Positions 93 to 11,883 of a DNA stretch of 13,899 bases are shown here, piece by piece (position 1 is the first letter of the stretch; each line of letters starts with the position of its first letter). The notes under the pieces were generated by a model, which was given only the letters and a program-made list of their open reading frames with translations, was not told the DNA's origin and ran no database searches. Made by a program: the position numbers and the translations under genes. This DNA is from Acidobacteriota bacterium (lineage in GTDB: Bacteria; Acidobacteriota; Terriglobia; Acidiferrales; UBA7541), in NCBI GenBank assembly GCA_003161495.1, contig PMOP01000140.1, positions 1-13,899 on the forward strand, in the 5' to 3' direction.

Positions 93-170
93 AGTGGCGC
101 ATGCTTTAGCTTGCGGGGTTTCTCCAGCCTGGGCAAAAATCAAAACCCGCAAGCTGAAGCATGCGCCACT
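93..170. repeat. Palindromic repeat, family A copy 1
   Basis: Inverted repeat with 29-base arms (93-121 and 142-170) that differ at about two positions, separated by about 20 bases. The arms begin AGTGGCGCATGCTT and end with a run of G and T. The same arm type recurs at 2082-2156, so this is a dispersed REP-like unit and not a one-off hairpin. The right arm runs into the TAG stop codon of btuD (169-171). RNA from either strand would fold into a long hairpin, so it could act as a 3' stabiliser or partial terminator between btuD and the next riboswitch. That role is inferred. Confidence 0.85.
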
Positions 171-1047
171 ACGTAATATCCTCGCCGCGACGCGCGCGCA
201 AATTCACGCGCGGCCTTCCCGCTGGTCCGAGTTCCACATCCAGCGGCGCGTCAAACACTTGCTCCAATAATTCCTTTTGATATACGGCGGCGGGCGTGCC
301 GACGCGCAGGCAGCGCCCATGCTGCAAGAGCACCACCTGATCCGCGAATTCCGCGGCAAGCCCGAGCTCGTGTGTCACGACCACGACGGTGTAACGGTTT
401 TCCTGCGCGAGCTGGCGCAAGCGTTCCAGCAATTCCACTTGCGCGCCAATGTCCAGATGCAAAGTGGGCTCGTCCAGCAGAATCAGACGCGGCTGTTGCG
501 CCAGAGCCCGCGCCAAAATCACGCGTTGCTTTTCGCCGCCGGAAAGCTCGCTCATAGTGCGTTTTGACAGGTGTTCCGCGCCTACCTGCGCGAGGGCGTT
601 GCGCGCAATCTCGATGTCCTCGGTGTTCGCAAATCGCAATGCGCGTCCGTACGGATAACGGCCTTGCAGCACAAAATCTCCGGCCAGCGCCGGATAGATG
701 ATCGGGCTTTCCTGGTGCACGACGGCGATGCGTTGCGCGCGCGTTCTCACGTCGAGCCTGCTGGTTTCCTCGCCGTCGAGTTCCACGCGGCCCGAGAGTG
801 GCGCAATCGTTCCGGTGATCAGCCGCAGTAGCGTCGATTTGCCGCTGGCGTTGGGGCCGAGAATAGCGACGATTTCGCGCTCGCGCGATTGGAAGCTCGT
901 CGCGCCCAACGTGAATGTCGGAACGGATTGTTCGCTCGCCGAATAGGCATAGCTGGCTTGCTCGACATTGAGCCGCACTGCCTGTTCGCGACCCGGTCGT
1001 TCCTCGCGCACGCCCGCCGTTTGCGCAAAAGTATCGGGCGCGCTCAT
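169..1047 (-). CDS. btuD: ABC transporter ATP-binding protein, BtuD/FecE-like (B12 import)
   Basis: A 292-residue ATPase that would power uptake of cobalamin through the neighbouring permease at the cytoplasmic face. All nucleotide-binding motifs are visible: Walker A GPNASGKS (64-71; alanine replaces the more usual glycine), Q-loop HQE (111-113), signature LSGGEKQ (168-174), Walker B LILLDEPT (188-195) and H-loop THE (225-227). The frame is open further upstream, but ATG at 1047 is the best start: it overlaps the permease stop as ATGA, a typical coupled junction, and the extra 45 residues upstream are low-complexity and lie inside the permease gene. Length fits the FecE/BtuD family. The B12 assignment rests on the upstream riboswitch and the BtuF-like binding protein; sequence alone would equally allow iron-siderophore or haem import. 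Confidence 0.9.
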
Positions 1048-2063
1048 CGCAATCCTCGCCGCAACAAATAAATGAATACGGGAGCTCCGGCCATTGCCGT
1101 CATGGCGCCCACCGGCAATTCCGTCGGCGGGACAATTGTGCGGGCGAGCGTGTCGGCCAGAACAATGGCGATCGCGCCGCACAGCGCCGATGCCGGAATC
1201 AGCAGCCGGTAATCCGATCCGAAAATCAGGCGCACCGCGTGCGGCACAAGCAAACCGACATAACCGATCGCTCCGCTCGCGGAAACGGCCAGCGCGGTCA
1301 ACAGCGACGCGGAAACGTATACGACGAGTTTCACGCGCGTCACGTCCACGCCCAGGTGCGTCGCTTCACGCTCGCCCGTGAGCAGTAAATTCAAATCCGC
1401 GGACGTGCTGTAAATCGCGCCGATGCCCGCAACGACTCCCACCGTCAAAATCCACTGCATTCCCGCGGAGACGGGCGTCGAAAGATCGCCCATCAGCCAG
1501 AAAACCATGCCGCGCAAGTCCCGCCCGGTAAGCGTCGTCATCAGGAACATGATGATCGCGGAAAAAAATGAGGCGGAGATGATGCCGCCGAGCAAGAGAG
1601 TCGAGCTGTCCAGCTGGCCTTCGCGACGGCCCAGAAAATAAACTCCCGCAATCGTCGCGATGGCGCCAATAAATGCTCCAAGCGGCGTGATCAGCGCAAA
1701 TCCCGGCGCGATGATCAGCGCGAGAATCGATCCCAGCGCGGCGCCGCTGGAAACGCCCAGGACATAAGGATCGGCGAGCGGGTTGCGCAGCAAGGCCTGA
1801 AAACTCGCGCCCGCAACGGAAAGCGCCGCGCCCACCAAAATGCCCAGCAAAATGCGCGGCAAGCGCAAATCAAAAACAATCAGACGATATTCGGTTGGCA
1901 GTTCGTTCGCACGGCCAATCGCAATCCGTCCGAGATCCACGACTAGATCGGTGACGGAGACGGGCACGGCGCCCAGCTTCAGAGCAAGCAACACGCACGC
2001 CAGCAGCAACATCGCAAGCCCGCCGCAAGTCCACAGCAATCGCTTGATAGTTAGCGGGCGCAT
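1044..2063 (-). CDS. btuC: FecCD/BtuC-family ABC transporter permease
   Basis: A 339-residue, highly hydrophobic integral membrane protein of the FecCD/BtuC type, which forms the dimeric translocation channel. Visible family blocks: an N-terminal membrane anchor (11-32), the LRLPR segment before the second helix (66-70), the hallmark GASFQALLRNPLADP (85-99) followed by GVSSGAALG (103-111), the cytoplasmic coupling region around GVDVTR (238-243), GAIGYVGLLVPH (264-275) and the C-terminal ELPVGAMTA...GAPVF (315-330). The start has an AGAGG ribosome site about 8 bases upstream and overlaps the end of btuF by 13 bases; the end overlaps btuD by 4 bases, so the three genes are probably translationally coupled. 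Substrate is inferred from the riboswitch and binding protein. Confidence 0.92.
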   Translation of the reverse strand: MRPLTIKRLLWTCGGLAMLLLACVLLALKLGAVPVSVTDLVVDLGRIAIGRANELPTEYRLIVFDLRLPRILLGILVGAALSVAGASFQALLRNPLADPYVLGVSSGAALGSILALIIAPGFALITPLGAFIGAIATIAGVYFLGRREGQLDSSTLLLGGIISASFFSAIIMFLMTTLTGRDLRGMVFWLMGDLSTPVSAGMQWILTVGVVAGIGAIYSTSADLNLLLTGEREATHLGVDVTRVKLVVYVSASLLTALAVSASGAIGYVGLLVPHAVRLIFGSDYRLLIPASALCGAIAIVLADTLARTIVPPTELPVGAMTAMAGAPVFIYLLRRGLR

Positions 2064-3226
2064 GCGCAGGCCTCTTCAACCGGTGGCGCAGGCTTCAGCC
2101 TGTGGGTTTTAGTCCTTGCAAGGACCAACCCCCGCAGGCTGAAGCCCGCGCCACTCGGTGCAACGCGCGAAGCAAATACTTCCGGGTGCAGCGCGCGCGC
2201 GAGCCGCTCAATGGCGTCCACCATTCGTGGCGCCGGTCGATTGATAGCATCGCTGATCACAACGACGTTTCCATGTTGCATCGCCGCAAGATTTTCCCAG
2301 CCGGGACGCGTTCGCAGCGCGTCGATGTCGCGTTGCGTATCTCCGGCATGCGCGCTGGCGAAAACCAGAACTTGCGGCTGAAGCCGGACAATCTCTTCCA
2401 GGCTGACATGCGGCCACTCGGCCTTCGTGTCCACGACCGAGCGCCCTCCCGCTCGGCGCAACGCATCAGCAATGAACGTGTCTCGCCCCACAGAAATCAA
2501 TGGATCGGTCCACACAACGAAAAGCACGCGCCTCGGCGCGGCGCCGCTGAGCCGGCGGTCGAGATCGGCGAGGCGCGCGCGCAGATCTTCGGCCAGCAGG
2601 GCGCCCTCTTTTTCAGCGCCCAGTGCGCTTCCAAGATGTTCCACGGACGCGATCATTTCTTCAACGCTATGAGGGTCGGTAACGTACACGGGCACGCCTA
2701 TGCGATCCAGCGCGTCCACCGTTTCGCGCCTGTTAATCGACTTCGTGGCCAGCACCAGGTCCGGCTTCAGCGACACGATCTCTTCCAAGTTCGGATTCAC
2801 CGGCCCGCCCACATGCGGTTTCCGCACAGCCTCCGCCGGGAAATCGCAATAATCTGTGTCACCCGCCAAATGATCTCCATCGCGCAGCGCAAAAACAATT
2901 TCCGTAAGATTCGGCGCGAGTGAAACCACGCGATTTACTTCCCGCGGAATTTGCACTTTTCGGCCCACTTCATCCGTGAATGTAGATGTCTGCGCTGCCA
3001 GCATGCTGCCGCAGAAAAGCAGGAAAAAGAAACACGTAGCACAGGCACTCTTGCCTGTGCGCTTTTGGAAACTGCGCGTACAACAACCGCCGCCTGAAAA
3101 TCGCGAAACCCGCACAGGCAAGAGCGCCTGTGCTACCAAAACCGGCCGGCGCGCTAGCCGGCCAATCGCCAATAATCCGCTGAACATACTCGGTCTTGAA
3201 TTAAATTCCATCAATTCTGTCCGCAC
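2051..3226 (-). CDS. btuF: BtuF-like cobalamin-binding protein, extended at both ends by repeats
   Basis: Periplasmic substrate-binding protein of the helical-backbone (BtuF/FhuD) class that would deliver B12 to BtuCD. The core runs from about residue 83 to 351: VVSLAPNLTEIVFAL (100-114), DTDYCDFP (123-130), GGPVNPNLEEIVSLKPDLVLA (140-160) and a C-terminal lobe with VLFVVWTDPLISVG (234-247). A hydrophobic signal segment (66-78) ends in MLAAQ. Two oddities: residues 31-64 are encoded by a family B palindrome inserted just before the signal segment, and residues 357-382 by a family A palindrome, leaving a non-family tail. The start is uncertain. GTG at 3226 has GAGG 10 bases upstream inside the terminator stem; ATG at 3211 or 3187 is also possible with weak ribosome sites. 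Whether the long N-terminus still permits export is unclear. Confidence 0.85.
   Translation of the reverse strand: MRTELMEFNSRPSMFSGLLAIGRLARRPVLVAQALLPVRVSRFSGGGCCTRSFQKRTGKSACATCFFFLLFCGSMLAAQTSTFTDEVGRKVQIPREVNRVVSLAPNLTEIVFALRDGDHLAGDTDYCDFPAEAVRKPHVGGPVNPNLEEIVSLKPDLVLATKSINRRETVDALDRIGVPVYVTDPHSVEEMIASVEHLGSALGAEKEGALLAEDLRARLADLDRRLSGAAPRRVLFVVWTDPLISVGRDTFIADALRRAGGRSVVDTKAEWPHVSLEEIVRLQPQVLVFASAHAGDTQRDIDALRTRPGWENLAAMQHGNVVVISDAINRPAPRMVDAIERLARALHPEVFASRVAPSGAGFSLRGLVLARTKTHRLKPAPPVEEACACAR
2082..2156. repeat. Palindromic repeat, family A copy 2, inside the btuF 3' end
   Basis: Same arm type as 93-170: the left arm (about 2082-2109) and right arm (about 2128-2156) are near-complementary, with the shared motif GGCGCAGGCTTCAGCCTG. 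The spacer holds a second, perfect 14-bp palindrome, GTCCTTGCAAGGAC (2112-2125), so the unit is a palindrome nested in a palindrome. It is fully inside the btuF reading frame, contains no stop in that frame, and adds about 26 residues to the protein. Confidence 0.85.
3036..3136. repeat. Palindromic repeat, family B, inside the btuF 5' end
   Basis: Two 25-base arms, 3036-3060 and 3112-3136, are inverted copies with a single mismatch (core GCACAGGCACTCTTGCCTGTG type), separated by about 51 bases. The unit lies in the btuF coding strand upstream of the signal-peptide core and is read through without a stop. A compact version of the same sequence type, with the arms nearly touching, occurs at 6600-6627. 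Confidence 0.85.
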
Positions 3227-4173: not shown

Positions 4174-4998
4174 CTAACGATTCTTCCACTCCGGCTTGCG
4201 TTTTTCAAGCAGCGCGCGCAATCCTTCCTGGGAATCCTCGAGGCGGTACAGTTCATTCAGGAAAATGTTCATCGAGTTTTTCAATGAGTCGCGCAACGAC
4301 ATTCCCATTCCGGCGACGACTGCTCTCTTGGCCATGCCCAGAACAGCGCCGGATTGCGTCGTGATTTTTCCGATGAGTTCGTTCACCGCGGCTTGCAATT
4401 GGGCTTCCGGCACCAGCCGATTCACGAGCCCCAGGTCGCGCGCCCGTTCGGCGGAAATGGCTTCGCCGGTCAGCACGAGTTCCAGCGCTCGCTTCGGTCC
4501 GACGATGTGGGGAAACATCGTCGAAGCCAATGGGGGAAACATTCCAATCGTGATTTCAGGCAGCGCGAAACGCGCGCGCGGCGTGGCCACTACCAAATCT
4601 CCGTAAGCAACAAGTTCCGCGCCGCCTCCGAGGGCCGCACCGTCCACGATCACCAGCACCGGCTGCGGAGCTTCCACCATGGCGATGCACGCGTCATGGA
4701 ACGCGGCCAGCATCGAGAATGCGCGCTCGCCGGTGTACTCGCCGACATCCACACCCGCGCTGAAAACTTTTCCGCCGGCGTCCAGAATGATCATCTTCGC
4801 CGTGCCGTTTTGGGCAACCATCCCGACGCCGTCCGCGAGTTCGCGCAGCATCTGCTCATTCAATAAGTTGTGTTCGGGACGATGCAATGTAAAGCGCGCA
4901 ACCGGGCCGTCGGTCTTGAAGCGGATAAATTCAAAATCCGCCGGCGCACGTCGCGCAGGCTTGTCGAATGCTTCTACAGTCTGGATTCGGTCTGCCAT
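4174..4998 (-). CDS. Enoyl-CoA hydratase/isomerase (crotonase) family protein
   Basis: A 274-residue crotonase-fold enzyme acting on an acyl-CoA thioester. The oxyanion-hole blocks are FSAGVDV (79-85) and GAALGGG (120-126). Both glutamates used by hydratases are at the expected places: E128 in GGAEL and E148 in LPEITIG. The C-terminal helices LTGEAISAERARDLGLVNRLVPE (176-198) are also typical. The style around FSAGVDVGEYT and IGMFPPLAS recalls cyclohexa-1,5-dienecarbonyl-CoA hydratases (Dch), but this is not enough to name the substrate. ATG at 4998 is preferred over the upstream ATGs at 5016 and 5040 because CGGAG lies six bases ahead of it. It is divergent from serS, and no other fatty-acid or aromatic degradation gene is in the window. 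Confidence 0.9.
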   Translation of the reverse strand: MADRIQTVEAFDKPARRAPADFEFIRFKTDGPVARFTLHRPEHNLLNEQMLRELADGVGMVAQNGTAKMIILDAGGKVFSAGVDVGEYTGERAFSMLAAFHDACIAMVEAPQPVLVIVDGAALGGGAELVAYGDLVVATPRARFALPEITIGMFPPLASTMFPHIVGPKRALELVLTGEAISAERARDLGLVNRLVPEAQLQAAVNELIGKITTQSGAVLGMAKRAVVAGMGMSLRDSLKNSMNIFLNELYRLEDSQEGLRALLEKRKPEWKNR

Positions 4999-5194
4999 GA
5001 TCAGCTCCGAATTCATGCTAGCACGGCCGGCGCGCGGCAAAAGATAGGGTCTGCGAGACTCGAAGTTAAGAGTTAATAGTCCAGAATTCAGATTTAAGGG
5101 TCGACAGTTTTAAATAGAGGGCTTTCGGACAGACCCGCTGCCGCATTCGCATTTCTTTCCTAAACTCCCGGCACATAGCTTTCAGATGTCGACG

Positions 5195-5250
5195 CTCATC
5201 ACGAGTTCCGAATCACGATTTACGAATCACGAGTCACGAATCACCCCTCT
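5195..5250. repeat. Four 14-bp tandem direct repeats upstream of serS
   Basis: The octamer CGAATCAC occurs at 5209, 5223 and 5237, exactly 14 bases apart. A degenerate fourth unit precedes it at 5195, matching at about 10 of 14 positions. The consensus unit is CGAATCACGAGTCA. The array lies 19 bases before the serS start, in the divergent gap between the crotonase gene and serS (4999-5268). The rest of that gap holds only AT-rich simple sequence around 5058-5115 and no gene. The array may be regulatory, or may be one of the short simple repeats scattered in such genomes. Confidence 0.7.
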
Positions 5251-5268
5251 TCATGTATCCTATCCCGC

Positions 5269-6543
5269 ATGCATGATTTGGGATATTTTCGCGAACACCT
5301 CGAAGAATTTGAAAAGATGGCGGCAGACCGCGGCGTCAGCATTGATTTCGCCGCCTTTCGCGCCATCGATCAGGAGCGCCGCGAACGAATTACATTCGCC
5401 GAACAGTTGAAAGCGCGGCGCAACAAGGCCAGCGAGGAAATCCCCCGCCGAAAAAAGGCCGGGGAAGACGTCTCCGCTGTGCTGGCAGAGATGAAGCAAG
5501 TGTCGGAGGAAATCAAGCTGGCCGACGAGCGAATCGCGGAACTGGACTCGAAGCTCCTGGATTTCATGCTCACCGTGCCGAATCGCCCGCACAGCTCGGT
5601 TCCGGTCGGGCACGATGCTTCGGCAAATGTCGAAGCGCGCCGCTGGGGCGCGCCGCCAAAATTCGATTTCAAACCGCTCCCGCATTGGGAAATCGCGGAA
5701 AACGCGGGGATCCTCGATTTTCAGCGCGCGGCAAAAATAGCAGGCACGCGTTTTGCGATTTATCGCGGCCTGGGCGCCCGCCTTGAACGCGCCCTGGCGG
5801 CGTTCTTTCTCGACACGCATGCCGCAAACGGATACACGGAAATTCTTCCGCCGTTCCTCGTAAACACGGCCGCTCTCACCGGCGTCGGCCAGTTGCCGAA
5901 ATTCGCTGCCGACATGTTTCATCTCGAAGGCACGGACCTGTGGCTGACGCCAACGGCCGAGGTCGAGCTCACCAGCATCTATCGCGACGAAACACTCGAT
6001 GCCGATTTGCTCCCCATCAAACTTTGCGCATGGACAGCGTGCTTTCGTTCCGAAGCCGGCGCGGCCGGAAAAGACACGCGTGGCCTGAAGCGCCAGCACC
6101 AATTCCAAAAAGTGGAAATGTTCAAGTTCACGCGCCCCGACCAGAGTTACGAAGAACTCGAATCGCTTGTGGCCAACGCCGAGCAGGTTCTTCAGAAACT
6201 CGGCTTGCACTATCGCGTCGTGGGTCTCTGCACCGGAGACATGGGTTTCGCTTCTTCAAAAACTTACGACATTGAAGTGTGGCTCCCCTCAGCAAATGAA
6301 TTCATGGAAATTTCTTCCTGTTCCAACACCGAATCGTTTCAAGCGCGCCGCTCCGGCATCCGTTTCAAGCCCAAGGGCGGAAAAAGCGAATTCGTGCATA
6401 CTTTGAACGGCTCCGGCCTCGCCGTGGGACGCACCTGGCTTGCGATCATGGAGAATTTTCAGCAAGCGGACGGTTCCGTGTTGATCCCGCAAGCTTTACA
6501 TTCCTATTTGGGAACGGATCGAATCCCCGCCGTTAAGCCGTGA
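5269..6543 (+). CDS. serS: Seryl-tRNA synthetase
   Basis: A 424-residue class II aminoacyl-tRNA synthetase that charges tRNA-Ser (and tRNA-Sec where present) with serine in the cytoplasm. The N-terminal long antiparallel coiled coil that grips the tRNA variable arm spans about residues 28-105. The catalytic domain shows the serine-binding TAEVEL (229-234), motif 2 [15 protein letters not shown] (259-273) followed by [11 protein letters not shown] (275-285), the [10 protein letters not shown] segment (344-353), and motif 3 with [14 protein letters not shown] (383-396). Length matches bacterial SerS. ATG 5269 fits the family N-terminus although no clear ribosome site precedes it. No T-box leader is visible upstream. 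Single-gene unit, convergent or divergent with nothing downstream until the promoter at 6801. Confidence 0.97.
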
Positions 6544-8704: not shown

Positions 8705-8911
8705 TCAAAGTTCGTCGTCGGTTGGAATCGGCTCCTTGTGCTTTTTTAGGCTCTCGATGTAGCCCTGAATTGCGTCCTTCGCCATTGTTTTTGCTTCACC
8801 CGATGTGCGTCCATATGTGACGCAGCCGGGCAGCGCGGGCACAATCGCCGTGAAGCCGCCCTCGGGTTCGGGACGCAAAAAAATGTTGAAGCGGAAGTGA
8901 GTCTTCTTCAT
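8705..8911 (-). CDS. HicB-family antitoxin-like protein, no HicA partner
   Basis: A 68-residue protein with the HicB-like fold signature: an N-terminal strand region FRFNIFLRPEPEGGFTAIVPALPGC (6-30) and a helix AKTMAKDAIQGYIESLKKHKEPIP (40-63). In type II toxin-antitoxin loci HicB neutralises the mRNA-cleaving HicA. No HicA-like frame lies on either side, and no C-terminal DNA-binding domain is present, so it looks like one of the common solitary HicB-like proteins. After its TGA stop the same frame continues open for 18 more sense codons (LREAGFSRAELTDFLERK) to a second TGA at about 8648, which could mark a premature stop. It is divergent from thiD, with the insertion sequence between. Confidence 0.82.
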   Translation of the reverse strand: MKKTHFRFNIFLRPEPEGGFTAIVPALPGCVTYGRTSGEAKTMAKDAIQGYIESLKKHKEPIPTDDEL

Positions 8912-8958
8912 GTCACTAGGATGATGCTATAGGAACTGCGGACGAGTCAATCTTAGGC

Positions 8959-8984
8959 ATTGCTGGGTAGTGACTCATTTTGAA
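8959..8984. repeat. Left target duplication and left terminal inverted repeat
   Basis: ATTGCT (8959-8964) is the target copy; GGGTAGTGACTCATTTTGAA (8965-8984) is the terminal repeat. If the adjacent T is counted into the repeat the duplication shrinks to TTGC, so 6 bp with GGG ends is the simpler reading. Confidence 0.92.
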
Positions 8985-9026
8985 AAGTAGGGGACAGCCC
9001 CCTAGGAAGCCATCCCCGTTCTCCTG

Positions 9027-9128
9027 CTACTTCTTACGTTTTATCAGATCGACCACGAACTGCCACAACTGGCAACTATTCACAGCCAACCCAATTACTA
9101 AGCAAAGCAGGTTTAAGCCGTTAAGCAT
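9027..9128 (-). CDS. Candidate 33-residue single-membrane-helix peptide
   Basis: An ATG-started frame of 33 codons ending in TAG. The peptide begins MLNGLNLLCLVIGLAVN, a plausible transmembrane helix (about 5-16), and ends with the positively charged tail DLIKRKK, as in many small bacterial membrane peptides. No strong ribosome site is seen (a GGGAAG lies about 14 bases upstream). It lies in the left passenger region of the insertion sequence. No function can be named and it may be chance. Confidence 0.35.
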   Translation of the reverse strand: MLNGLNLLCLVIGLAVNSCQLWQFVVDLIKRKK

Positions 9129-9325
9129 GGTTCTGGCTTTCTTCCCTTCGGGGCGACCGAAGGAATTCAGCTATCTTTGGAGATAGTCCTGGGGGCAGCG
9201 GGCTACACCACTGGACCCACGGCGACGGTCGGCTTAATTGGCCGGGTATCGCCGCAAGGATTTTACGCTGAATTGAGTCTTGGCGCGGGATTGCCAGTTG
9301 TGGCAGTTCGTGGGAAGATGCCGCA

Positions 9326-9580
9326 ATGTTACTGGTATTTGAGGTCGCCGCCGGAGTGCTTCTCGCCCTGAGTATCTGGCGGCTTCCCACGATTTATAGA
9401 CGAAGGAAAGTGCGGAATTTGTATCTGCGACTTTCGTCTGCTGAGGCGTTGTTTGAGGCGACGAAAGCTGAGATGTACACCAAAGATCAAACCAACTTAC
9501 TGATTCAACTCGCTCTTGCCCAAAATCAAGCCCAAAAGGAATCTCTAGCTTCTCAATTGGCTGATAGTTTTACACCCTAA
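9326..9580 (+). CDS. Small membrane-anchored passenger protein, unknown function
   Basis: An 84-residue protein. An N-terminal transmembrane helix (about 3-18) is followed by the basic YRRRKVR (24-30), consistent with an N-out/C-in anchor, and then a long helical, glutamine-rich cytoplasmic part (33-80) that could form a coiled coil. GGGAAG lies about eight bases before the ATG. It ends 16 bases before the stop of the convergent two-helix gene at 9597. It lies inside the insertion sequence and is not needed for transposition by any known IS1 scheme. I do not recognise the family. Confidence 0.6.
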   Translation: MLLVFEVAAGVLLALSIWRLPTIYRRRKVRNLYLRLSSAEALFEATKAEMYTKDQTNLLIQLALAQNQAQKESLASQLADSFTP

Positions 9581-9596
9581 TTTGAGGACCTGTCCG

Positions 9597-9755
9597 TTAC
9601 CACCAATACGCACTATATTCGCCTATCCAGAAAACTATGAAAAGTGCGGCCGCGAATCCGTAAATAATCCACGCTGTTTGACCAGATTGAGTAACCCCGA
9701 TTGAGAGAATTACCAACCCGACTGCAAAAATTAGCAGTTTCAGAAGATTTTCCAC
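9597..9755 (-). CDS. Small two-helix membrane protein (52 residues), passenger
   Basis: A GTG-started frame of 52 codons with GGGAG five bases upstream. The peptide has two clear membrane helices, LLKLLIFAVGLVILSIGV (about 4-21) and AWIIYGFAAALFIVFWIG (about 28-45), joined by a short polar turn TQSGQT and ending EYSAYWW. An in-frame TAG lies just upstream, so the GTG is the natural start. It is convergent with the 9326 gene and divergent from the 9785 gene, making a compact cluster of small genes. Shape resembles small holin-like or toxin-like membrane proteins, but no family is recognised. Confidence 0.6.
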   Translation of the reverse strand: MENLLKLLIFAVGLVILSIGVTQSGQTAWIIYGFAAALFIVFWIGEYSAYWW

Positions 9756-9784
9756 GATTTCTCCCAGTGTTGAAAGGATATTCT

Positions 9785-9982
9785 ATGAAAACTACTTCGA
9801 AGCTTTCGTGGGATGAGTATCTGGCTGCGTTTGCTGAAATTTTGAAAACCATGACCGCACCGCTTCCGCCGGACGTGATCCAGAAGATAGCGCGCGAAGT
9901 TGAAGCAAGCCTAGTCGATATTTCTCGTTCATCTCCGGTACCAGATTTGGATTTTTCTCCGCCCCAGCAAGAGCATCTTTAA
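9785..9982 (+). CDS. 65-residue passenger protein, antisense to the next gene
   Basis: ATG 9785 has GAAAGGA about seven bases upstream. The protein is helical, with SWDEYLAAFAEILKTM (8-23) then PLPPDVIQKIAREVEASL (27-43), which reads as genuine protein; the last 20 residues are proline-rich and less convincing. The frame is open upstream to 9701, but the ribosome site favours 9785. It overlaps the minus-strand gene 9792-10127 along almost its whole length. I do not recognise it. Confidence 0.5.
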   Translation: MKTTSKLSWDEYLAAFAEILKTMTAPLPPDVIQKIAREVEASLVDISRSSPVPDLDFSPPQQEHL

Positions 9983-10127
9983 AGTGCGCTCCCGCACCAG
10001 GATACTTTGCGTTGTTTTCTAAAGCTGTGACAGCCGAATAGTAGGCATTCAGCTTTGTATCTAGCACTTTCAAAGCATCAGTCCAAGCAACCAGCAAATC
10101 GTTAAATTCTGCGGAATTCACGTCCAT
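9792..10127 (-). CDS. Helical protein co-transcribed with the transposase, unknown
   Basis: A 111-residue protein starting 12 bases after the transposase stop, with AGAGG overlapping that TAG stop and about nine bases before the ATG, so it should be translated from the transposase message. Residues 1-80 look like a helical hairpin (EFNDLLVAWTDALKVLDTKLNAYYSAVTALEN at 7-38, then AGAHFKDALAGAEKNP at 45-60 and an alpha segment to 80). The last 30 residues are Ser/Pro/Thr-rich and lie antisense to the 9785 gene. No motif is recognised. Position in a transposase operon suggests an accessory or cargo role; this is inference. Confidence 0.62.
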   Translation of the reverse strand: MDVNSAEFNDLLVAWTDALKVLDTKLNAYYSAVTALENNAKYPGAGAHFKDALAGAEKNPNLVPEMNEKYRLGLLQLRALSSGSRPAEAVRSWFSKFQQTQPDTHPTKASK

Positions 10128-10139
10128 AGCTGAGTACCT

Positions 10140-10985
10140 CTAGGCAGCTTTTACCGCAGGCACTTCCAACAAGCCAGCAATTTCTTCGATCTCCCAAACG
10201 TGATCTGAAACGCCAGCTTCCATAGCGGGAGTAACGCGCAGTGTCTTGTGAATTCGGCAGAAATTGTAGTGCATATAATACAGTGCGATTGCCCAGAAGT
10301 GATTGTCTACCTTTTTGCTGAAAGCATTCGTTAGGCGCGTGAACCGTCGCATCCCCATCCGCATTGAGAGATTCTGGCGTTCAATATAGCTGGTCGAAAT
10401 GTATTTAGGATTCGGGCGACCAGCGACTTCGATTTCGCGTGTTCCGATGCACTCTGCTGGCGAATACCGTGCTTCTGTCACGCGGTCATTGCCGTAGAGT
10501 TTAATCAGCATGGCATAGTCAATACCATTCCCGAATGCACCCTCGACCGCTTCCAAATAGGCTCTGTGGCCATCCGTAGTCAACTGGACGCGATTGGCGA
10601 GCCGCGAAGCGAGATCATCCATAAAAGTTTTGGCGGCTTGCGAATTACGACTCCCGACCATGAAGGACGGCACTAGCTTGGTGTCCGCGTCCATCGCTAC
10701 CCAAGTCCATACATCGCCGTACCCGAAAGTGTTCTTCTTATCTTCAGGCACGTTCTTCTGTTTGGCGTAACAAAAACTCCAGCATTCGTCGCACTGGATG
10801 CGCTTGCAGGTCAGATTGCGGAATACCTTATTCTGGTATTCCAGACAGACGCGGCCAATCTCGGGCAGTAGTTTCAGCACGGTGTTGAACGCGACGTTGC
10901 ACATACGAGCCGTCGCTCGGAGTGAGTTCCCTTCCACGAGGGAAGCAATAATTTGTGTTCGTTGTTGGTTTGATAGGCGATTCAT
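10140..10985 (-). CDS. IS1-like single-frame DDE transposase
   Basis: A 281-residue transposase. A helix-turn-helix (about 18-45) binds the ends, followed by a cysteine cluster (C60, C65, C68, C72) of possible zinc-finger type. The catalytic core carries D99 in VAMDADTKL, D138 in LTTDGHRAYL and E202 in SYIERQNLSMR, with the IS1-style tail RRFTRLTNAFSKK (213-225). Unlike IS1 itself, no frameshift is needed. ATG 10985 is chosen because the family N-terminus is MNRLS and the upstream TTG at 11024 is the -35 box of its promoter. The gene fills the centre of the element and appears intact. Assignment to the IS1 family is from motif recall; ISfinder naming is not possible here. Confidence 0.92.
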   Translation of the reverse strand: MNRLSNQQRTQIIASLVEGNSLRATARMCNVAFNTVLKLLPEIGRVCLEYQNKVFRNLTCKRIQCDECWSFCYAKQKNVPEDKKNTFGYGDVWTWVAMDADTKLVPSFMVGSRNSQAAKTFMDDLASRLANRVQLTTDGHRAYLEAVEGAFGNGIDYAMLIKLYGNDRVTEARYSPAECIGTREIEVAGRPNPKYISTSYIERQNLSMRMGMRRFTRLTNAFSKKVDNHFWAIALYYMHYNFCRIHKTLRVTPAMEAGVSDHVWEIEEIAGLLEVPAVKAA

Positions 10986-10994
10986 AATGAAGTC

Positions 10995-11024
10995 ATTATG
11001 CATGAGCCGCTCAAGCATTGTCAA
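10995..11024 (-). promoter_or_regulatory. Transposase promoter, near-leaderless
   Basis: On the minus strand TTGACA (11024-11019), an 18-base spacer and CATAAT (11000-10995; five of six matches) form a strong sigma70-like promoter. The predicted start of transcription, about 10988, is only some three bases before the transposase ATG at 10985, so the message would have almost no leader and no Shine-Dalgarno site. Confidence 0.65.
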
Positions 11025-11110
11025 GAGAAAAGTGAGAAAAAATGATATATTCTGCGATGACCCCTACTGACGAGTTGCCATCCTATCTTCCTGAAATTGG
11101 AGGGTATTTC

Positions 11111-11386
11111 ATGAGCAAAGGCGAACAGAACGAAGTGCGCGAGACACTTAAACTTCGGGAAAAAGAGATTCGCAATGAGATTGCGGGTATCGAGGGAAAG
11201 ATGAAGGCGGCTGCACCGCCTTTCAACTCACTCAGCAGGTCTCTGGCTGATTGCCAAGTCGGGAACTTAGATTGGAGCGTTTATCAAAACCTCGTCTCTG
11301 AACTCCCGCTCAAAGCAAAACGCTTTGATGCTTTAAAAATAGAGTTGCAGGACGTTCGGGCACAACTAGCTAAATTCATTGATTAG
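11111..11386 (+). CDS. Small coiled-coil passenger protein, unknown function
   Basis: A 91-residue, highly charged helical protein: EVRETLKLREKEIRNEIAGIEGKMKAAA (8-35) and KRFDALKIELQDVRAQLAKF (70-89) read as coiled-coil segments joined by a polar loop. The frame is open from 11042, but ATG 11111 has the strong site GGAGG about eight bases upstream and is the likely start. It diverges from the transposase and its last 11 bases overlap the convergent 11376 gene. No family is recognised. Confidence 0.6.
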   Translation: MSKGEQNEVRETLKLREKEIRNEIAGIEGKMKAAAPPFNSLSRSLADCQVGNLDWSVYQNLVSELPLKAKRFDALKIELQDVRAQLAKFID

Positions 11387-11624
11387 CCGTATTCCAGCGA
11401 GCTTTAGCGGCTTTACTGGCGATTTGAGACCTTTGTTCTCGACTAAGCCGTTTGGCACGCTCCTTACCGCCCTTTAGGCCCCCTTTACGGCCTATTTCAG
11501 CCAGATATGCCGATATTGGCGATCTGACTTCGGATACCTGATCGGTACTCTCGGTCAGTAACTTGGCGATTTGGTGAGCACGCTTATTCGTATCTTTGGG
11601 CAATCTCTTGCTTGATCGGATCAT
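11376..11624 (-). CDS. Basic Gly/Lys-rich (KGG-type) passenger protein
   Basis: An 82-residue, strongly basic protein. Residues 1-28 (KRLPKDTNKRAHQIAKLLTEST) precede a glycine-lysine block IGRKGGLKGGKERAKRLSREQRSQIASKAAKARW (44-77) typical of a widespread family of small proteins sometimes annotated as histone H1-like or stress-induced KGG proteins. Such genes are, from memory, common on plasmids and mobile elements. The basic charge would allow nucleic-acid binding; function is unknown. It is the last gene before the right terminal repeat, convergent and overlapping by 11 bases with the 11111 gene. No clear ribosome site precedes ATG 11624. Confidence 0.72.
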   Translation of the reverse strand: MIRSSKRLPKDTNKRAHQIAKLLTESTDQVSEVRSPISAYLAEIGRKGGLKGGKERAKRLSREQRSQIASKAAKARWNTANQ

Positions 11625-11669
11625 GCATCTATTATGGCACGTTTTTCTGTACTGTCTATACCTTCAGAA

Positions 11670-11695
11670 TTCAAAATGAGTCACTACCCATTGCT
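11670..11695. repeat. Right terminal inverted repeat and right target duplication
   Basis: The stretch 11670-11689 is the exact reverse complement of 8965-8984. ATTGCT (11690-11695) is the second target copy. Confidence 0.92.
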
Positions 11696-11731
11696 GTTTC
11701 AGAACTGAACGCCAGGTAGTTGGGCAGTGGG

Positions 11732-11746: not shown

Positions 11747-11883
11747 ATGCGCTAGGCGTGGCAAAAAAGATGTTGCGCGTGAGCGTTCACACGCGTACAT
11801 TTCGACTTGCCGGCTCGCGCGTCGGTTTGCGCAGCCGGTCCACTTGTCTGTGGGCGACTTTTGTCGCGGAGGGGCTCGAAGAA

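Follow-up and report, generated by a model that had tools for sequence, protein, structure and literature searches.

An IS1-type transposon family in which a small basic protein appears to accompany the transposase

The insertion sequence IS1 is a mobile element under 1 kb that makes an 8–9 bp target duplication and uses an InsA/InsB' programmed frameshift; single-frame members exist. The element described here occupies positions 8966–11688 (2723 bp) of the 13,899-nucleotide contig PMOP01000140.1 from an Acidobacteriota bacterium (assembly GCA_003161495.1), the whole of which we call the window. The element and its relatives resemble IS1 in their PF03400 match, DDE triad, inverted ends, and 8–9 bp duplications, and differ in having a single-frame transposase, ends that begin GGTAGTG, a length of 1.9–5.2 kb, and a partner gene for a small basic protein, here called KGG. 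With passengers between its ends and one transposase, the element also counts as a tIS, a class that PMC7986276 describes as insertion sequences with passenger genes; what differs is that all 50 boundary-defined elements contain additional DNA and that one particular partner gene is usually retained. According to PMC7157771, Tn3-family transposons hold toxin-antitoxin pairs whose context suggests a regulatory role in transposition. Their transposase is unrelated to ours, and the kept gene here encodes a lone basic protein beside cargo that varies. The pieces are therefore of known kinds: an IS1-type transposase, the tIS arrangement, and toxin-antitoxin cargo. A description of the transposase–KGG pairing was not found among the titles and abstract openings listed from an open-access library, which is weak evidence of absence; subscription journals, ISfinder, and TnPedia lay outside the scope of that search, and the pairing may be described there.

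We favor, with moderate confidence, the combined statement that this is an autonomous IS1-type transposon with a two-gene core (transposase and KGG) and exchangeable cargo, in which KGG regulates or assists transposition. Judged from sequence comparison, the two-gene-core description is very probably correct; the regulatory role of KGG is a tentative proposal. The same comparison shows the KGG gene accompanying the transposase across at least two phyla, in most cases encoded on the transposase strand and upstream of the transposase, and read inward from the nearer end. The transposase would act on the GGTAGTG ends and insert the whole unit, leaving 8-bp duplications, and may also mobilize short same-ended elements in trans. 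KGG, a highly basic protein in which five positions are invariant, would bind nucleic acid and regulate or assist transposition, a job that we liken to that of InsA in two-frame IS1. If true, this adds a testable component to the transposition control of a textbook insertion sequence.

The boundaries were set by reading the window beside its relatives. Taken alone, the window suggests 20-bp ends and a 6-bp duplication, as the original prediction had it (8965–11689, 2725 bp); the relatives' ends begin GGTAGTG and mostly duplicate 8 bp, which gives 19-bp ends, an 8-bp duplication, and the bounds 8966–11688. The 6-bp duplication was rejected on this ground, one duplication base per side having been counted as end. 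The exactness of the inverted ends stood, with two matches to the end pattern at ≤ 3 mismatches in the window and 0 in 200 shuffles. The target-site duplication, CATTGCTG, lies at 8958–8965 and 11689–11696. The left terminal inverted repeat, GGTAGTGACTCATTTTGAA (8966–8984, plus strand), is on the 3' side of the transposase gene, and the right one (11670–11688, minus strand) is on the 5' side of KGG and the transposase. GC content is 0.486 within the element vs 0.590 outside it.

The transposase gene (10140–10985, minus strand) encodes 281 aa in a single frame from an ATG at 10985, with alternative starts possible upstream to 11024. Its product scores 29.9 bits against PF03400 (cut-off 24.1) and 58.9 bits against NF033558, the NCBIfam IS1 equivalog, below the cut-off of 100; it is related to, but outside, that curated model. 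D66, D138, and E202 are present in all 80 aligned transposase rows. Together with the paired ends and the duplication, these results bear out the earlier description of an IS1-like element with passengers and an intact single-frame DDE transposase. Related solved structures numbered none at E ≤ 1. At least 8000 relatives were found in a large protein set, and matches occurred in 60 of 396 genomes of the host phylum (E ≤ 1e-10, host counted), in 11 of 249 genomes of the phylum of G404, a Proteobacteria-titled genome, and in 6 of 247 genomes of the phylum of G397, titled Ignavibacteriae (both at E ≤ 1e-30, centre counted).

Relative loci were stretches around mostly best-scoring transposase matches, up to 4 kb per side, and the plasmid sample was the first 4 of 26 records found by transposase. 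Paired GGTAGTG ends were identified at 52 of 80 transposase rows, or 50 of 78 without L136 and L137, which were picked up by searching for KGG and are excluded from all 50-element and 78-locus counts. Six permuted end motifs, run through the same procedure, gave paired ends at 0, 0, 0, 0, 1, and 0 of the 78 loci. A duplication of 8 or 9 bp was seen in 45 of the 50 boundary-defined elements and none in five, one of which (L093) had given an offset 6-bp repeat in an earlier reading. The 52 elements range from 1908 to 5150 bp. Copies lacking all passengers, named beforehand as a finding that would count against a cargo-carrying element, did not appear: 0 of 50 elements are without extra DNA, the minimum being 1131 bp beyond the transposase match.

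The KGG gene (11376–11624, minus strand; 82 aa, pI 11.3) starts 64 bp inside the right end and is the conserved partner of the transposase. The search of elements used a profile of 70 sequences homologous to the window protein, and that of genomes a 29-member alignment. Among the first 32 elements, 26 contained KGG, which in 24 of them was on the transposase strand and upstream of the transposase. Asked which passengers are retained, the boundary-defined elements point to KGG: it lies inside 29 of the 30 whose transposase is ≥ 50% identical to the window's, and inside 7 of the 20 below 50%. The sole miss above 50%, L086, has a KGG-like N-terminus after its end (by eye). KGG shares the transposase strand in 34 of 36 KGG-bearing elements. 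With L136 and L137 included, 23 of 37 same-strand matches begin 44–92 bp inside the end and 14 at 146–1284 bp; a start < 100 bp inside the end was found for 21 of 35 same-strand matches (the broken KGG gene of L063 counting twice), compared with 0 of 2000 trials of random placement in free DNA. KGG and transposase distances were correlated (r 0.41, 31 pairs), including among elements with transposases ≥ 50% identical (r 0.39, 25 pairs), with 0 of 5000 permutations as high in each case. On the transposase tree, with rows cut by contig edges scored as KGG-lacking, the KGG label is clustered but needs 14 changes against a shuffled mean of 25.7, and 0 of 500 shuffles were as low.

A similar pattern was observed in whole genomes. 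The 396 host-phylum genomes hold 41 full-length KGG genes, 35 of them ≤ 5 kb from a transposase match and 34 on the same strand and upstream, counts inflated by the 28 of 41 that were alignment seeds; the fair figure is therefore 7 of 13. Among the six non-seed genes without a near transposase, L131 and L132 sit between paired ends flanked by 8-bp duplications, in L134 an end with one mismatch lies 77 bp upstream, and L130 and L131 keep a transposase remnant nearby. The L132 element (4923–5464, 542 bp, GGTAGTG-type ends) has KGG as its sole recognized gene. In the 249 genomes of the phylum of G404, a seed-free sample, five of six KGG genes are beside a transposase and the sixth has an element end 684 bp upstream. 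KGG is also inside the ends in all 4 plasmid records sampled; a tblastn search of plasmids with one KGG member gave no match, and that search was too weak, because the profile detects KGG at four plasmid loci. Three KGG homologues in the large protein set are on contigs sized 4676, 3107, and 2845, equal to contigs of transposase relatives, which fits shared contigs without proving them.

Several observations weigh against the two-gene-core reading, the seed inflation of the 35-of-41 count among them. Two of the six non-seed genes, L133 and L135, have neither an end nor a transposase near. KGG is missing from 13 of the 20 elements with transposases < 50% identical, so a transposase of this type is able to move in its absence, and the 14 changes on the tree imply that gain or loss is frequent. 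It is on the opposite strand in L078 and L097, and it starts 346–1284 bp from the end in L061, L071, L073, L081, L093, and L094. The nearest transposase relatives, L163 (72%) and L164, meet contig edges 345 and 451 bp upstream with no KGG, and in L165 (69%, matching from residue 23) the 4 kb upstream contain no end and no KGG. Paired ends were not found at 28 of 80 transposase rows, and the host assembly holds one full copy of the element. Finally, Pfam matched 0 of 29 KGG members, and a search for solved-structure relatives of KGG returned none (best E 0.81). In four KGG-less elements (L088, L089, L092, L098), a common uncharacterized ORF of ~ 114 aa was observed, which might be an alternative partner.

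Some of these points bear on a different explanation, which we consider unlikely: that the elements keep KGG as selfish or protective cargo, such as a protein resembling an antitoxin or a chromatin component, that acts outside transposition. The 13 distant elements without KGG would fit it, as would the 16 of 19 partial matches in the host phylum in which the C-terminal motif of KGG occurs away from a transposase, and the sources in which KGG relatives are named 'histone H1'. The usual position of KGG near one end and on one strand, its co-inheritance with the transposase, and its presence in elements whose other cargo differs argue instead for a core gene. The protein itself is basic across 31 members (pI 9.0–12.0) and has five invariant positions (two G, R, A, and W). 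In four family libraries, it matched a PHROG of unknown function (E 2.2e-5). The Pfam KGG repeat (PF10685), which we take to comprise the GsiB/KGG stress repeat proteins, shares a GG-rich basic motif with KGG by eye and was rejected as its family because none of the 29 members match. If the two-gene-core reading with a transposition role is true, it could explain some bacterial 'histone H1' annotations.

Apart from KGG, the element holds four probable cargo ORFs, and the earlier account of small uncharacterized ORFs in some 1.8 kb beyond the transposase was borne out, since the four family libraries gave only chance-level matches to them, the KGG–PHROG match excepted. ORF111 (9792–10127, minus strand) lies on the transposase strand, its start 12 bp past the stop codon of the transposase gene, and has 10 homologues in the large protein set, which was queried with KGG, the transposase, and ORF111 only; two of these homologues are on contigs sized 3022 and 994, equal to contigs bearing 97% and 75% transposase relatives. 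ORF52 (9597–9755, minus strand) is a small hydrophobic protein with two hydrophobic stretches (by eye), a GTG start, and GGGAG upstream. ORF84 (9326–9580, plus strand) has an N-terminal hydrophobic segment and is otherwise helical (by eye). ORF91 (11111–11386, plus strand), helical by eye with GGAGG upstream, has an end that overlaps the end of the KGG gene. ORF52, ORF84, and ORF91 belong to no family in these libraries. ORF65 (9785–9982, plus strand), listed earlier as a passenger gene, was rejected and is probably spurious, being almost wholly antisense to ORF111 with its 10 homologues.

These four ORFs seem to fill a variable cargo slot. A tblastn search of ORF111, ORF52, ORF84, ORF65, ORF91, and ORF64 against other loci found nothing at E ≤ 0.1. 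Absence of the passengers from related copies, the second finding that the original prediction had said would count against it, thus applies to these six and does not apply to KGG. The passengers do not form one travelling module, because KGG is retained and the others are unmatched in relatives. In L163, the downstream end comes 206 bp after the transposase match, which means that this copy lacks the left cargo block seen in the window. A possible, if doubtful, alternative is that, KGG and ORF111 apart, the extra ORFs are hitchhiking DNA, either decayed or non-coding. The lack of matches in other loci would fit this, as would third-position GC, which is 0.42–0.50 in ORF52, ORF84, ORF65, and ORF91 vs 0.66–0.72 in four host ORFs, though KGG (0.46) and ORF111 (0.44) are equally low. 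Against decay, plausible ribosome sites precede ORF91, ORF52, and ORF111 (by eye), and the large protein set was queried for ORF111 alone among the cargo ORFs.

On the reading that we favor, ORF91, ORF111, ORF52, and ORF84 would be exchangeable and may benefit either the element or its host, as suggested by the defence-like cargo of some relatives. From their sequences, some relatives carry genes that look like anti-phage or toxin-antitoxin genes. Pfam was run on 125 mechanically chosen cargo ORFs of relatives, and 25 of 38 families were listed; among the matches listed, HTH_3 occurred in 12 ORFs, the IrrE-like peptidase M78 in 5, and a SocA-like antitoxin in 3, with single matches to HigB, HicB, HipA-like, Fic, and P63C. 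PADLOC was run on one ORF per element, mostly the largest, in 30 elements, to which L096 was added. Matches below 1e-20 were found in 8 of 30 elements (PD-Lambda-2_B in five, RmrA in two, SoFic in one), or 9 of 31 with L096; the nine include L136, a locus picked up by searching for KGG. L184 is RmrA-like, L182 is SoFic-like, and L066, L096, L136, L149, L151, and L181 are PD-Lambda-2_B-like. In L152 (1555–5778, a Hoeflea plasmid), adjacent RmrT and RmrA are inside the ends, with an 8-bp duplication, beside KGG and the transposase. Among seven partner ORFs run against PADLOC, that of L152 matched a model and the other six matched none; in Pfam, the L066 partner matches a HigB-like toxin. HTH–M78 proteins are common outside defence, and the PADLOC labels therefore show resemblance rather than function.

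The original prediction had raised defence, addiction, or transposition control for the passengers; transposition control is plausible for KGG, and it is improbable that the small membrane proteins of this copy themselves make up a defence or toxin-antitoxin module, for despite the defence-like cargo of the relatives just named and the 10 homologues of ORF111, PADLOC matched 0 of 8 window ORFs at E ≤ 1, no toxin or antitoxin family matched them, the cargo ORFs were not found in other loci, and 22 of 31 relatives had no strong PADLOC match and only one of seven partner ORFs did.

The KGG lineage spans the host phylum, a second phylum, an Ignavibacteriae-titled genome, and alphaproteobacterial plasmids. 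A broader reading, which we hold only loosely, is that of a multi-phylum IS1-type lineage in which KGG, as a dedicated second core protein working at the ends or close to them, determines how often the element transposes or which targets it chooses, a variable slot spreads toxin-antitoxin or anti-phage genes, and the window copy's slot holds a new uncharacterized set. If so, the slot would be a place to look for new genes of defence or toxin-antitoxin systems.

The window's exact end was found in 24 stretches of 11 assemblies, titled Acidobacteria, Terriglobia, Proteobacteria, Deltaproteobacteria, Bacteroidetes, Chitinophagaceae, Ignavibacteriae, Chloroflexota, and Candidatus Manganitrophus; 7 of the 11 contain a transposase match as well. 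For 19 of the 24 stretches a partner end was identified, and 18 of these 19 pairs span 76–352 bp, which indicates that short derivatives lacking a transposase are common; the pair of 76 bp (L029) is doubtful. By eye, 11 of the 19 show a perfect 6-bp repeat beyond the 20-base end pattern. Viral contigs gave 0 matches to the exact end pattern. One Ignavibacteriae-titled stretch (L007, 3253–5453) has the window's own ends, KGG 77 bp inside, and other ORFs, with no transposase and no clear duplication.

Within the element, a perfect 23-bp inner inverted repeat, overlooked previously, has its left arm at 9053–9075 (plus strand) and its right arm at 9291–9313 (minus strand) and encloses 215 nt. Compared with shuffles, folding of 9053–9313 was much stronger on both strands, with z-scores of -7.6 (plus) and -8.5 (minus), and that of the interior alone was less so, at -2.1 (plus) and -3.2 (minus). 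No second copy was found in the host assembly, 199 phylum genomes, or plasmids. Rfam families were rejected for the element, as all three matches were far below the gathering score. The repeat is a candidate nested miniature inverted-repeat transposable element or structured RNA.

The window is contig C49 of a 3.9 Mb host assembly of 544 contigs with an estimated completeness of 73%. A lone element end with 3 mismatches is on host contig C417, and on contig C15 (L142, 4235–4810) a decayed transposase start is divergent from a short KGG gene, a layout also seen twice in G172. To the left of the element, a short ORF (8705–8911) that begins 47 bp from the target duplication resembles HicB antitoxins (solved HicB, E 2.2e-4), and to the right, an ORF at 11758 looks like thiD (by eye). 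Further away, a cobalamin riboswitch (RF01482; 3260–3405, minus strand) heads a minus-strand ORF block (169–3226) that by eye resembles a B12/metal transporter.

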